From positions 248,001 to 312,000 of the forward strand of contig NZ_JAGQCJ010000001.1 in NCBI RefSeq assembly GCF_024346135.1: DNA of 64,000 nt, given 5' to 3'. Source of the DNA: Cyanobium sp. CH-040 (GTDB lineage Bacteria > Cyanobacteriota > Cyanobacteriia > PCC-6307 > Cyanobiaceae). Of the stretch, positions 7,733 to 15,741 are shown piece by piece. A program made the position numbers and the translations under genes. Numbering within the stretch: position 1 is the stretch's first letter; the number at the start of each line of letters is the position of its first letter. A model generated the notes under the pieces. That model saw nothing but the letters and a program-made list of their open reading frames with translations. It was not told where the DNA came from and searched no databases.

Positions 7733-8906
7733 TCAGCTCTCCAGCGGCAGCAGGGTGGGCCGGCTCTGCAGCGGCAGCGCCGGCAGCCGGATCGGAAAGC
7801 GGTTCCGCTCCAGGCGCTGCACCAGCTCGGCGGCGATCTCCGAGGCCAGACGGGGACTGTGGGCCGGTGCGCAGCGCAGGCGCCGGCCGTTGAGTTCGAA
7901 ACTGCCGCTGGTGAGCTGGGCATAGGTCACCGAGCCGAGGTTGGGTTTGATCCGCCGGGGCACCGCCATGTCGAGCACCGGTGCCTCCAGGCGCTCGGGC
8001 TCGGCGGCGGCGGCCCGGGCCACCTCCGGATCCAGCAGCGGCACCGGTGCCGCGATCGCCACCAGCAGGGCACTGCCGTGACCGGGGAAGAAGCAGGGCC
8101 GCACCCAGCGGCCGTCGAGTTCGTGAAGATCCACGCTCACCGCAGCGCTGGCCCCCGGGGTGAGGGCGTGGCCGCTGCGCTGACGACGGGGCCGGGGCTG
8201 GTGGCCGCTGCCGGCACCCAGCACCCAGCCGACGGCACCGGCCACCAGCACCGGTGAGCCGGGCCCCAGCAGCTTCAGCCCCGGCATCGTCAGGCCGATG
8301 CTGCCGGCGCCCCCGCAGCTCCACAGGGCCGTGCCATGGGGCCCGAGCAACGGACCCCAGGGGCTGGCACAGAGTCCTGCAGCGCTGCTCATGGCCACCA
8401 CGCCGTTCTCGCTGATGGCGCGGTGCAGCAGCAGCCGGCCGGTGCCGATGCGCTCCAGGGTCAGATCGGTGTGCAGATCGCGGCGCGGGTGCAGGGCGGT
8501 GCCCTCGCCGCTGGCATCGAAGGCCAGCTCGCGGCCGGACAGCAGTGCCGCCAGCAGCTGGGCGCCGCTGTGGCGGCCCGGCTCCACCAGTCCGCCCCCC
8601 ACCGGCAGCACGATCTCCCCCGGCCCGCCGCTGGCCAGTCCCTGCACGCCATCGAGCTGCACCTCGCGCAGCCGGATCGGTGGATCGGTGGGACCGAGGG
8701 AGAGGTGCAGGCTGGCCTGGTCGGTGAAGCCGGCGTCGGCGGCCACCACCACATCGGTGCAGGCGTAGGCGGCGTTCAGGCCGCTCTCCCGCACCAGCCG
8801 CCGGAAGTCGGTGGCTGTGCGCACCCGCAGCTCGCCCCGCTGCTGCCGCAGGCGCAGATGGGCTTCGCTGCGCTCGATAGAATCACCCGACTGCAGGCGG
8901 TCATGC

Positions 8907-8908
<2 letters not shown>
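7733..8908 (-). CDS. HcyBio (DUF39) family protein, putative homocysteine biosynthesis protein
   Basis: 391 aa from the ATG at 8908. Conserved blocks are [33 protein letters not shown], then [20 protein letters not shown] and the late block [21 protein letters not shown]. They fit the HcyBio family, implicated in sulfide incorporation into homocysteine in anaerobes and also found in cyanobacteria with less certain function. No NIL, ferredoxin or CBS domain is attached. The start codon shares two bases with the divergent gyrA start (ATGCAT at 8905-8910 region), so its promoter must lie within gyrA coding sequence unless the true start is a later GTG near residue 29. Confidence 0.7.
8878..8883 (+). 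promoter_or_regulatory. gyrA -10 box (TAGAAT)
   Basis: TAGAAT ends 23 bases before the gyrA ATG at 8907, giving a leader of roughly 15 bases. It lies inside the first codons of the divergent HcyBio-family gene. Confidence 0.6.
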
Positions 8909-11627
<2,719 letters not shown>

Positions 11628-11630
11628 ACA

Positions 11631-11660
11631 CCGTTCCCGTCCAGCCCGTTCCCGTCCAGC
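11631..11660. repeat. perfect 15-bp tandem duplication between gyrA and the next gene
   Basis: CCGTTCCCGTCCAGC occurs twice in direct succession (11631-11645, 11646-11660), filling most of the 45-bp spacer between the gyrA stop and the downstream GTG start. Confidence 0.95.
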
Positions 11661-11672
11661 GAGGACACCGCC

Positions 11673-12803
11673 GTGGCGGCCTCTGATCTCTGGATCGCCA
11701 ACACGGTGACCGATCTGATTCAGGGCGATGTGCGCGAGCACCTGCCCCTCGAGCGCATTCCCCTGCAGGGCGACGTGCTTGGGCTGGGCACCACCACCAG
11801 CCTCGACAACGGCGAACTCATCTTCCTGCCGCAACCGGGGCAGGGCGACACCACGATCTGGAAGTGCCGGGCCAGCGATGGCGGCATCCGGGCTCTCCAG
11901 CCCGGCGATGGCAGCGCTCACTTCCCCTACGTGTGCTTCAGCGGCGATGCCTCCGCCGTGCGCACTCCCCTGGATCCGGCCCTGCTCGCTGATGCCGCTG
12001 GCCGGCCCCTGCAGGAGCTGGTGGGCGAGGCGATCGCGCTGCTGCGCCGGCAGGGGCGCCTGCCGGAAGCCCCGATCTATGGCCTGCGGCTGGTGGCGCG
12101 TTGGCAGTCGCTGGTGATCACCGTGGCCTCCAAGCTGTGCATGGGCCAGCAGCGGCGCAACACCGCCATCGCCAGCAGCGCCGCCAGCGAGGCCACAGCG
12201 GCGCGGAGCATCTACCAGCTGCTTCAGCACTACCGGCTGGCTCCCCATGACCCGGGCTATCCCGCCGATCCGATCCGCTACCTGGGCCGGTCGCTGCAGT
12301 GGGAGTGCTGCGGCTTCCACGACACCGACCCCGAGCAGGGGAGGGTGACGGTGCCCCAGCCCGGCGCCCACCTGCACCTGCATGGCTGCAGCACCGACCT
12401 GCGCTTCGGGGGCCATCTGCACCATGAACACCCCGAATCCCGGCTCGCGCAGCTCGAGCGGCTGGTCCTCTACCCGCTGCAGCGGATCCACAGCCTGGCC
12501 AGTGATCTGGGGGTCGACGGGCTGGGCTTCAGCGATGGCGCCGTGCGCTTCCGGGTCTACAACCGCGGCGGCCTGGATGTGAGCGATGTGGGCGTGGCGG
12601 TGGTGATCGACGACCGCTACAGCGGCCACCGCTACCTGCGGCTGCCCTGGCTGGCGGCCGCTCAGGCGGAGCAGTTCAGCGTGCCGCTGGCGCTGGAGCC
12701 CGGCCGGCACCGGCTGGAGGTGATCGTCGATCCCCAGCGGGAGGTTCTGGAACGTCCGGAGCTGCAGGCCAACAACCGCCGGGTGCTGGAGGTGGAGGTG
12801 TGA
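11673..12803 (+). CDS. acetolactate-decarboxylase-like domain fused to a CARDB domain
   Basis: 376 aa from the GTG at 11673. Residues about 30-280 resemble alpha-acetolactate decarboxylase: GDVLGLGTTTSLDNGELIFL matches the family's LGxGTxxxLDGExI block (Glu48), and HLHGCSTDLRFGGH at 235-248 matches the zinc motif HxH-x10-H (His235, His237, His248). The position of the usual catalytic Arg seems to be Val151. Residues about 285-376 look like a CARDB beta-sandwich (VRFRVYNRGGLDVSDVGV, then LEPGRHRLEVIVDP and LQANNRR). No signal peptide is visible. The stop overlaps the lycopene cyclase start (GTGA). The activity is uncertain; I infer a metal-binding decarboxylase-fold protein. Confidence 0.62.
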   Translation: MAASDLWIANTVTDLIQGDVREHLPLERIPLQGDVLGLGTTTSLDNGELIFLPQPGQGDTTIWKCRASDGGIRALQPGDGSAHFPYVCFSGDASAVRTPLDPALLADAAGRPLQELVGEAIALLRRQGRLPEAPIYGLRLVARWQSLVITVASKLCMGQQRRNTAIASSAASEATAARSIYQLLQHYRLAPHDPGYPADPIRYLGRSLQWECCGFHDTDPEQGRVTVPQPGAHLHLHGCSTDLRFGGHLHHEHPESRLAQLERLVLYPLQRIHSLASDLGVDGLGFSDGAVRFRVYNRGGLDVSDVGVAVVIDDRYSGHRYLRLPWLAAAQAEQFSVPLALEPGRHRLEVIVDPQREVLERPELQANNRRVLEVEV

Positions 12804-14086
12804 GCGGGGTGCCGCTGCGGGACGTGCTGGTGCTGGGTGGCGGTCCGGCGGCCCTCTGCATCGCGTCGGCTCTGGCCGGCGAGGGGCTCTCGGTGGCGCT
12901 GCTGGCCCCCCACGATCTCCGTGCCCCCTGGCCCAACACCTACGGCATCTGGGGCGAGGAGGTGGATGCCCTCGGCCTGGCCCATCTGCTGGAGCACCGC
13001 TGGAGCCACACGGTGAGCTATTTCGGCGCCGGTTCGAGCGATCCGGCCGACCCCGCCAACCGACCCACCCCGCACCGCCGCGACTACGGCCTGTTCGACC
13101 GCGGGGCCCTGCAGCAGCACTGGCTGGACGCCTGTGAGCGCGGTGGGGTGGAGCTGCTGGCGGGCAAGGCCGAGCGCTTCCGGCTGGATGCCGAGGGACG
13201 CTGGAGTGTCCTCGCCACCGCCGACGGAGCCCGCCACCAAGCCCGGCTGGTGGTGGATGCCACGGGCCATGAGCCGGTGCTGGTGCGGCGGCCGGATCTG
13301 GGCCCGGTGGCGGGCCAGGCCGCCTACGGGATCGTGGGCCGCTTCTCCGCACCGCCGGTGGAGGCCGGCCAGTTCGTGCTCATGGACTACCGCGCGGACC
13401 ATCTCAGCACCGAGGAGCGCCGGCAGCCGCCCACCTTTCTCTATGCGATGGATCTGGGCGAGGGCCGCTTCTTCGTGGAGGAGACCTCCCTGGCCCTGGC
13501 ACCGCCCGTGCCCTACGACACTCTGCGGCGACGTCTGCTGCGGCGCCTCGCCCACCGGGGGGTGCGGGTGGAGCAGGTGGAGCACGAGGAGTTCTGCCTG
13601 TTCCCGATGAACCTGCCGCTGCCGGATCTGCGGCAGCCGGTGCTGGGCTTCGGCGGCGCGGCCTCGATGGTGCACCCCGCCTCCGGTTACATGGTGGGTT
13701 CTCTGCTGCGGCGCGCGCCCGCCGTGGCCGAGGCGGTGGCCGGGCTGGTGCGGGCCGAGCCCCAGGCCGGCTCGGCCCAGCTGGCGCAGGCGGGCTGGGA
13801 TGCGCTGTGGCCCCTGGACCTGCGCCGCAAGCACGCCCTCTACCAGTTCGGGCTGGAGAAGCTGATGCGCTTTTCCGAGGTCCAGCTGCGGGCCCACTTC
13901 GCCACCTTCTTCTCCCTGCCCGATGCCCAGTGGTACGGCTTCCTCGCCAACACCGCCACGGTGCCGGAGCTGCTGACGGCCATGCTGCGGCTGTTCGGCC
14001 AGGCCCCCTGGAGCGTGCGTCTGGGCCTGATGGGACTCCAGGGCCGTGAGCCGGCACTGCTGGCCCGGCTGATCCGTCCCAGCTGA
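12800..14086 (+). CDS. crtL: lycopene cyclase (CrtL family)
   Basis: 428 aa from a GTG at 12800 overlapping the previous stop. A dinucleotide-binding motif DVLVLGGGPAALCIA opens the protein, followed by WPNTYGIWGEEVDALGL and FLYAMDLGEGRFFVEETSLA, which are hallmarks of CrtL-type lycopene beta/epsilon cyclases. The enzyme closes the ends of lycopene on the way to beta-carotene and zeaxanthin in the membranes. Beta or epsilon specificity cannot be told by reading. crtE, at 26920, supplies the GGPP precursor. Its 3' end lies 17 bp from the convergent GH57 gene. Confidence 0.9.
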   Translation: MSGVPLRDVLVLGGGPAALCIASALAGEGLSVALLAPHDLRAPWPNTYGIWGEEVDALGLAHLLEHRWSHTVSYFGAGSSDPADPANRPTPHRRDYGLFDRGALQQHWLDACERGGVELLAGKAERFRLDAEGRWSVLATADGARHQARLVVDATGHEPVLVRRPDLGPVAGQAAYGIVGRFSAPPVEAGQFVLMDYRADHLSTEERRQPPTFLYAMDLGEGRFFVEETSLALAPPVPYDTLRRRLLRRLAHRGVRVEQVEHEEFCLFPMNLPLPDLRQPVLGFGGAASMVHPASGYMVGSLLRRAPAVAEAVAGLVRAEPQAGSAQLAQAGWDALWPLDLRRKHALYQFGLEKLMRFSEVQLRAHFATFFSLPDAQWYGFLANTATVPELLTAMLRLFGQAPWSVRLGLMGLQGREPALLARLIRPS

Positions 14087-14103: not shown

Positions 14104-15741
14104 TCAGCCCGGTGGCGTCACCCAGTCGGCCGCGTTCAGGGCCGGGAACAGGTGATCCTCCCGCTGCACGGCCCGAAGCCAGCCGGCGGGCAGGTCGCTG
14201 CCGGTGTCGATGGCGGCCATCAGCCGCCAGAAGCGGTCGAGGTGGCGCCGGATGCGCTCCCGCGCCAGCTCGGTGGTGGTGCCGGCCCTGAGGATGAAGC
14301 TCCAGTCGGAGCTCTGGGCCAGCAGCAGCTCCCTGCCCGCCTGGGTGAGCAGGTCGCGCTGCAGGGGGCTGGCCACGCCCTGGTTCACGCGGCGCACCAT
14401 GGCCCGCGACGCCCGCTGCCATTCCGGCACCACCCAGGCGTTGCTGTCGTTGAGCCAGTAGTCGTGGTAGCCGCCCTGCCCCCAGCTGCTCGGGGACGGC
14501 CGGCACACCTGCAGGCTGGGCCGCTGCTGCAGGGCTTCGCGCAGGCTCACCAACCGCACGCCGGCCTCGCCTGACTGGCGGAACAGCGCCGCCAGGAACT
14601 GGGGACCCTCGAACCACCAGTGGCCGAAGAGCTCGGCGTCGAAGGGGGCCACCAGCAGGGGAGACGGGTCCATCGAACCGGCCAGGCCGCTGAGCTCGCT
14701 GGCCCGGCCGGCCAGGTAGGCCGCGGCGTGCTCGTGCACCCGCAGGGCTGCGGTGGCGGGGTCGTAGGGCTGCTTGTGCTCCAGCGGGCAGCCCTGGGCC
14801 GTGACCCGGTGCAGTTTCAGCCCCAGGGGCCGGCGGCTGCCGATCCCCGCTTCCTCGAGCTGCTCCTCCGGCAGATCCCAGCCCAGGTCGCGGTGGAACT
14901 CCCGGTAGGCACCATCCCCCGGATAGCCTTCGCGCGCGCTCCACACCGGCAAAGTGGCGTTGCCGTCGCGGCCGAAGAACGCCACCCCGGCCGGCGAGCA
15001 GATCGGGGAGAACACGCCGTAGCGGGGCCGGGGCAGGGCGTGCAGCAGGCCGTGGCCGTCGAGCACCGTGTAGCGCAGTCCGGCGGCGAGCAGCTGCTGG
15101 TCCAGACCTTCGTAGTAGGCGCATTCCGGCAGCCAGATCCCCAGCGGCCGCTCACCGAGCTGGCGTTCGTGCTCGCGCACGGCGTTGATCAGCTGCGCCC
15201 GCACCGCCTCCGGCACCTGCCGCAGCAGGGGCAGGTAGCCGTGGGTGGCGCCGCAGGTGATCAGGTCCAGCACCCCGAGCTGCTGCAGCCGCTGGAAGCG
15301 CGGCACCACGCGCCCCTCATGGTCGAGCCACTGGCTCTCGATCGCCTGCAGCTGCCCGGCCAGGTGCTCGGCGGCATCCCGGTGCTCGGGCGGTGCCTGC
15401 TCCAGCAGGTGCTGGCGCTGCACCAGCCAGGGAAGGAAGCGGGCGTTGAGCTCGCGGTCGGAAAGCAGGGTGAGGAGCGTGGGCGACAGCCCCAGGGTGA
15501 GGCGCGGCTGCTGGCGCCGGTCCGCGGCCGCGGCCTCCAGTACCGCCAGCAGCGGCAGGTAGCACTCCTGCAGGGCCTGGAAATACCAGTCCTCCTCCAG
15601 GGAACCGGCTTCCCCGCTGCGCACGTAGGGGAGGTGGGCGTGAAGGACGAGGGCCAGCTCACCGGAGAACCGATCGCCGCTGGCCGGATCGCCGTTGCCC
15701 ATGGCACCGCCGCACTGGCGCCACTGTACGGGCTTCTCCAT
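14104..15741 (-). CDS. glycoside hydrolase family 57, 1,4-alpha-glucan branching enzyme-like
   Basis: 545 aa. The GH57 motifs are in order: HAHLPY (34-39), the catalytic nucleophile in GIWLPECAYY (Glu206) and the acid/base in PFDAELFGHWWFEGP (Asp368), followed by the DUF1957-type helical C-terminus with WQRASRAMVRRVNQG. This arrangement is the one seen in GH57 branching enzymes that make alpha-1,6 branches in glycogen. malQ at 46496 is the other glucan enzyme in the window. The ATG at 15741 is upstream of a second possible ATG at residue 15, and the conserved domain begins only near residue 27. Confidence 0.88.
   Translation of the reverse strand: MEKPVQWRQCGGAMGNGDPASGDRFSGELALVLHAHLPYVRSGEAGSLEEDWYFQALQECYLPLLAVLEAAAADRRQQPRLTLGLSPTLLTLLSDRELNARFLPWLVQRQHLLEQAPPEHRDAAEHLAGQLQAIESQWLDHEGRVVPRFQRLQQLGVLDLITCGATHGYLPLLRQVPEAVRAQLINAVREHERQLGERPLGIWLPECAYYEGLDQQLLAAGLRYTVLDGHGLLHALPRPRYGVFSPICSPAGVAFFGRDGNATLPVWSAREGYPGDGAYREFHRDLGWDLPEEQLEEAGIGSRRPLGLKLHRVTAQGCPLEHKQPYDPATAALRVHEHAAAYLAGRASELSGLAGSMDPSPLLVAPFDAELFGHWWFEGPQFLAALFRQSGEAGVRLVSLREALQQRPSLQVCRPSPSSWGQGGYHDYWLNDSNAWVVPEWQRASRAMVRRVNQGVASPLQRDLLTQAGRELLLAQSSDWSFILRAGTTTELARERIRRHLDRFWRLMAAIDTGSDLPAGWLRAVQREDHLFPALNAADWVTPPG

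Follow-up and report, generated by a model that had tools for sequence, protein, structure and literature searches.

Acetolactate decarboxylase (ALDC; the BudA, AlsD and AldB proteins, described by the profiles PF03306 and TIGR01252 and by structures 4bt2, 6j92 and 5xne) is the known system that comes closest to the protein considered here. Its active-site residues are presumably Glu65, Arg145 and Glu253 of chain 4bt2 (chain indices counted by eye), the Arg being catalytic and the C-terminal Glu a metal ligand. Two further systems are relevant: PTD012 (C11orf54; 1xcr), which has a hydrolase role (ester hydrolase activity), and the CARDB domains, for which the usual settings are adhesion or binding. 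Among picocyanobacteria, two reports on Black Sea Synechococcus interpret ALDC as acetoin fermentation (PMC6776005, PMC8955281), and a comparison of Black Sea strains attributes acetoin fermentation, through its catabolic acetolactate gene, to deep strains only (PMC7434838). A literature search, judged by titles, turned up no publication that links ALDC to CARDB, in agreement with an earlier, sequence-only reading of this DNA, which knew of no described ALDC-CARDB protein. We call the CARDB-fused ALDC relative, which lacks the catalytic Arg, X; new here is the near mutual exclusion of X and canonical ALDC.

Domains, fold and active-site residues of X

X is encoded on the forward strand at positions 11673..12803 of the window, i.e., the whole 64,000-nucleotide stretch of Cyanobium sp. 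CH-040 DNA that was analysed. Its reading frame opens with GTG and specifies 376 residues, recognised as an ALDC fold joined to CARDB from Pfam profiles and a predicted model; by eye, no signal peptide is apparent. Purifying selection acts on X, whose dN/dS against five relatives is 0.20-0.30. Because the values in these five pairs are 0.16-0.23 for the ALDC-like part versus 0.34-0.51 for CARDB, the ALDC-like part is the more constrained of the two.

The profile searches proposed in the sequence-only reading returned both domains: PF03306 matches residues 8-79 (E 1.9e-5) at 24.5 bits, which is 0.5 bits short of its cut-off of 25, and the CARDB profile PF07705 matches residues 291-363 (E 1.1e-4) at 22.8 bits, over its cut-off of 22.7. 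TIGR01252 reaches 21.1 bits against a cut-off of 180.65. When 50 relatives of X were scanned singly at E up to 0.01, the CARDB match appeared in 49 and the PF03306 match in 42. Since a PF03306 search of the whole Cyanobium sp. CH-040 genome at E 0.001 passes over X, and found no ALDC either, annotation based on cut-offs would miss this gene. A PDB sequence search with a profile of X gave weak rows, the first being a CARDB chain at E 0.18, with ALDC (4bt2) at E 0.93.

An AlphaFold2 model of X built with 50 aligned relatives has a pLDDT of 90.2 and a pTM of 0.86; an earlier model from 8 sequences (pLDDT 61) was set aside. ALDC structures lead the Foldseek list for this model (6j92_A at 3.0e-9), and nine ALDC or ALDC-like entries stand at the top of the VIA-align results with Z of 18.8-20.1, the best again being 6j92_A (Z 20.1, rmsd 3.2, 212 aligned) and PTD012 following below them (Z 14.2, rmsd 4.3, 225 aligned). 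The C-terminal part, residues 272-376, superimposes on 3idu_B (Z 14.4, rmsd 1.9, 99 aligned). The ALDC-like fold and the CARDB fusion had both been proposed from the letters alone, and both proposals are borne out: the model heads for ALDC structures, no unrelated fold having appeared, and CARDB is recovered by its profile cut-off as well as by structure. We regard the predicted fold and domain make-up as secure. From the PF03306 match, the fold and the alignment, the ALDC-like domain extends over about residues 8-270 (11694..12482, + strand), the boundary at 270 being an estimate; from the Pfam and structure matches, CARDB extends over about residues 276-376 (12498..12800, + strand). Because all nine ALDC structure alignments stop within CARDB, at model residues 359-364, the model suggests that this domain occupies the position that the C-terminal tail has in ALDC.

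An hhalign comparison of X with 22 cyanobacterial ALDCs (E 1.5e-4, probability only 51.8%) and three MAFFT modes concur on the correspondence of active-site residues. The Glu of the ALDC DGE motif (index 65, chain 4bt2) aligns with Glu48 of X (11814..11816, + strand), the ALDC metal triad with His235, His237 and His248, and the ALDC Arg (index 145) with Thr150 (12120..12122, + strand). The predicted metal triad of X lies in HLHGCSTDLRFGGH (12375..12416, + strand), whose HxHx10H pattern falls in the ALDC triad columns in all three MAFFT alignments. Each of these five residues is present in 50/50 aligned X proteins, and the Arg is present in 22/22 ALDCs; the ALDC set was picked by its His-triad pattern, so that conservation of the triad there is by construction, that of the Glu and Arg not. 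The motifs quoted in the sequence-only reading are present in the translation of X, and the three His, to judge from the alignments, are in register with the ALDC triad as had been supposed. Its claim that the catalytic Arg has been lost also holds (0/50), except that the position was off by one, hhalign and MAFFT placing it at Thr150 and not at Val151. The C-terminal Glu of ALDC (253 in 4bt2) has no aligned counterpart in X, where the chain runs on into CARDB, and 4/22 cyanobacterial ALDCs end without it too. Other invariant residues of X include E22, H23, K154, C156, R162, H186, H251 and H253.

The alignment of 50 X proteins consists of 47 of 55 full-length rows together with the window protein, L002 and L003. 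Eight rows were omitted as copies or incomplete (L010, L030, L034, L035, L048 and L072-L074), and broken or cut loci (L017, L024-L029, L062, L075, L076) and duplicates (L050, L052) were removed beforehand. The ALDC alignment holds 22 of 27 ALDCs found, L082 and L088 yielding none. Because X misses two of the ALDC features examined, the score cut-offs and the Arg, we regard it as a sister subfamily beside ALDC, not a member of it.

Distribution and genomic setting of X

X is matched in 17/388 genomes of the class and in 49/271 genomes of the family (those at least 90% complete), 43 of the latter being unbroken, i.e., near full length without a stop; broken copies (six of X and five of ALDC) were excluded from all unbroken counts. 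One of the 43, in G008, matches only from residue 16 with its upstream part out of frame, and since its genus is without ALDC the tests reported below are unaffected. A scan of contigs gave 47 X loci, which belong to picocyanobacteria apart from six in records of Haliea, Halioglobus or Gammaproteobacteria. A full-length copy (L054) is carried by the Black Sea surface strain BSA11S, although the acetoin-fermentation gene has been assigned to deep strains only (PMC7434838). X is, in short, an accessory gene of Synechococcus and Cyanobium with relatives in other cyanobacteria and in Halieaceae MAGs.

The copies in the Haliea, Halioglobus and Gammaproteobacteria MAGs (L066, L068-L072) have about 48-51% identity to the window protein, and five of the six form a single branch of the X tree (100/100). 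These copies likely arrived by horizontal transfer, misbinning being the alternative. Broken versions of X, with stops, splits or fragments, occur in several cyanobacterial genomes (L017, L024/L027, L025/L108, L026/L028/L029 and L115) and show that X is frequently lost.

In the window, X starts 45 nt past the end of gyrA (8907..11627, + strand; NF004043, 1139.5 bits against a cut-off of 902), the start at 8907 being a reading of the frame, and overlaps by 4 nt (GTGA) the lycopene beta cyclase gene crtL (12800..14086, + strand; NF045687, 624.7 against a cut-off of 500). Across the 47 loci this setting varies. The direct order gyrA-X-crtL is found at 15; a further ORF separates X from crtL at L040, L042 and L043; the order is gyrA-crtL-X at L044 and L067; L061 has gyrA and no crtL match; L075 begins inside X and continues into crtL; and at 25 loci, some of them short, neither gene adjoins X. 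In the X tree, the 18 rows with the crtL-coupled position group together as a single branch (support 81/83), and gyrA adjoins crtL in many genomes without X. Because the sites of X vary, the coupled site is confined to this one branch and the gyrA-crtL pair exists without X, neither gene explains X, as the sequence-only reading had held when it noted the overlap and the upstream gyrA.

Elsewhere, other genes take these positions. In Synechococcus WH7803 (L045) the order is purQ, S66 peptidase, X, aldolase (purQ and the aldolase named by eye), and an S66 LD-carboxypeptidase-like gene lies just 5' of X, behind a purQ-like gene, at several marine Synechococcus loci (e.g., L045:5011-5985). Lycopene cyclase, S66 peptidase, aldolase and others are ruled out as steady partners of X, as the neighbours differ by lineage. 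Two further features of the window overlap or adjoin this locus: an antisense open frame of 1483 codons (8901-13352, - strand), which covers gyrA, X and the beginning of crtL and probably just reflects the GC-rich coding DNA there, and a gene resembling GH57-type 1,4-alpha-glucan branching enzymes (14107-15741, - strand), which is convergent to crtL.

Co-occurrence of X with canonical ALDC and other acetolactate genes

Canonical ALDC is matched in 35 of the 271 family genomes and unbroken in 30, and only two genomes (G362 and G590), both of which carry an alsS-ALDC operon, hold X and ALDC unbroken together. Tested over the whole family, the exclusion falls short of significance (Fisher p 0.19), most genomes holding neither gene. 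When the test is stratified by genus, over the five genera with both genes, two co-occurrences are observed against 7.9 expected (p 0.001); inclusion of remnants weakens the exclusion (5 observed against 10.4 expected, p 0.007). We also examined the two genes on a tree of gyrA from the CH-040 genome and 68 genomes of four genera (69 in all), for which the model fits place some rates at their bounds. Independent evolution simulated on this tree gave a mean of 7.2 co-occurrences, and 0.9% of the 3418 accepted runs had no more than two (p 0.009); a Pagel-type test gave p 0.010.

ALDC occurs either in an operon with AlsS or standing alone; X meets the first form in two genomes and the second in none. 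Restricting the gyrA-tree analysis to ALDC without an adjacent AlsS (i.e., no AlsS at E 1e-100, with G606, which has an AlsS remnant, counted as operon type, and with a remnant check that covered part of the stand-alone genomes) gave no co-occurrence against 4.6 expected, an outcome reached in 0.4% of 2894 simulations (p 0.004; Pagel-type p 0.007). Catabolic AlsS itself, at E 1e-100, is found in 12/271 genomes, nine times directly beside ALDC and three times without ALDC. AlsS is ruled out as a steady partner of X, in that X is unbroken in just two of these 12 genomes, each of which carries ALDC as well.

Remnants show one of the two genes decaying where the other stays. G606 keeps ALDC, with an AlsS remnant ahead of it, and still has residues 3-123 of X as a fragment that separates gyrA from crtL; G388 and G286 keep X and retain ALDC in broken pieces that most resemble the operon type (57-77% to L093 or L095). 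All three cases concern ALDC of the AlsS operon, whereas the strictest exclusion is that of stand-alone ALDC. One of the G388 pieces (L226:786-1269) joins the N-terminal 62 residues of AlsS to the C-terminal part of ALDC, a relic of an alsS-ALDC operon that has suffered an internal deletion.

A TPP-dependent decarboxylase also occurs near these genes. Two genomes of another cyanobacterial family (G331 and G353) have, in one-strand order, an MFS transporter, a TPP enzyme resembling pyruvate or indolepyruvate decarboxylase, and X, which in G353 contains an in-frame stop; in two Synechococcus genomes (G362 and G599), AlsS-ALDC lies one ORF from a homologue of this enzyme (L111:2631-7539, L112:3029-7922). 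Strong matches to the TPP decarboxylase (over 440 bits) occur in 27/271 family genomes, and X does not exclude it, being unbroken in 14 of these 27 versus 29 of the 244 others. Within the 27, ALDC is unbroken in eight, X or ALDC is unbroken in 20, any trace of them is present in 23, and neither occurs in four. Stratified by genus, the association has p values of 0.0035 with X, 0.60 with ALDC and 0.018 with either, and the signal with X hangs on one genus, p being 0.11 once it is removed. The Cyanobium sp. CH-040 genome has no AlsS at 1e-100 and no close pyruvate-decarboxylase homologue (best 1.7e-11).

The proposed role of X and its nearest relatives

Because the exclusion, the remnants and the conserved metal site point towards the job of ALDC, set against the missing Arg, our best explanation, to which we give about even chances, is that X is an Arg-less metal-dependent decarboxylase that stands in for canonical ALDC in picocyanobacteria, most likely acting on alpha-acetolactate or a close 2-hydroxy-3-oxo acid (e.g., acetohydroxybutyrate). 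The predicted model and the profile show an ALDC fold with CARDB attached. A metal, by homology zinc, would be held by the three His with Glu48 nearby, as their invariance and alignment with ALDC suggest. With an invariant Thr at the Arg site, some other residue, perhaps Lys154 or Arg162 (both invariant), would have to hold the carboxylate of the substrate, and CARDB, going by the aligned ranges, would substitute for the C-terminal tail and might cover the active site. The physiological job would be the same as that of ALDC, as the mutual exclusion and the remnants suggest. Since no ALDC, AlsS or close pyruvate decarboxylase was found in the CH-040 genome at the thresholds given above, the substrate would come from the acetolactate synthase of branched-chain amino-acid synthesis. 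Also in favour of this explanation are the gene orders that place the TPP decarboxylase beside X or near AlsS-ALDC, and the contrast that X excludes ALDC but not this enzyme. Besides the missing Arg, several results tell against it: the C-terminal Glu without an aligned counterpart, the missed ALDC cut-offs, the low hhalign probability, the family-wide Fisher test, the weaker exclusion once remnants are counted, the operon type of ALDC in all three remnant cases, the want of a steady link between X and AlsS, and a TPP-decarboxylase association that hangs on one genus and does not extend to ALDC.

A possible but less probable account is that X, with its ALDC/PTD012 fold, is an active metal enzyme that has another substrate and chemistry (e.g., hydrolysis or the decarboxylation of another keto acid), and that its exclusion of ALDC reflects niche. 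The replacement of the Arg by an invariant Thr, the additional invariant residues of X listed above and the structural match to PTD012 over 225 residues all agree with this account, and the sequence-only reading took the loss of the Arg as a hint that the chemistry may differ from acetoin production. However, the ALDC scores clearly exceed that of PTD012, the exclusion holds under both genus and tree controls, and the remnants go both ways; the near mutual exclusion with canonical ALDC argues for a similar physiological job. It is improbable that X has ceased to be an enzyme and now serves as a metal-binding or regulatory protein with CARDB for interaction: the lost Arg and the usual contexts of CARDB would suit such a protein, but the triad and Glu48 are invariant across cyanobacteria and gammaproteobacterial MAGs alike, and constraint is tighter on the ALDC-like part than on CARDB. 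A role in carotenoid synthesis alongside the coupled lycopene cyclase, to which the GTGA overlap and the 15 gyrA-X-crtL loci might point, is scarcely credible given the 25 loci (WH7803 among them) with neither neighbour, the many gyrA-crtL pairs without X and the restriction of the coupled site to one branch.

A stronger version of our favoured explanation, which we consider doubtful, would have the catalytic Arg lost for good, with an invariant Thr in its place, and CARDB acting as a lid in place of the tail, perhaps with Glu360 as the missing acid; X and ALDC would have been swapped back and forth in picocyanobacteria, and acetoin-type overflow would be far wider than annotated. Should X decarboxylate acetolactate, acetoin overflow in picocyanobacteria has been undercounted and the ALDC reaction is possible without the Arg; should its activity be another, one would have to explain why a widespread accessory gene avoids ALDC. 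In either case, annotation by cut-off overlooks the X family.

In relation to the known systems, X shares with ALDC the fold, the HxHx10H triad and the Glu of the DGE motif, and by their distribution the two seem interchangeable in picocyanobacteria. X differs from ALDC in having Thr150 for the Arg, in the absence of the C-terminal Glu tail and in an added CARDB of 100 residues, which is reflected in its length of 376 residues versus 232-275 for ALDC reading frames (their starts being script-chosen). PTD012 has a zinc-containing fold that is probably related, and its match to X (Z 14.2) ends at model residue 276, ahead of CARDB. With the CARDB of PF1109 (3idu and 2kl6), X shares its C-terminal sandwich (Z 14.4 and 13.5), but whereas that CARDB is a domain of an archaeal (Pyrococcus) protein, in X it is joined to an ALDC-like domain.
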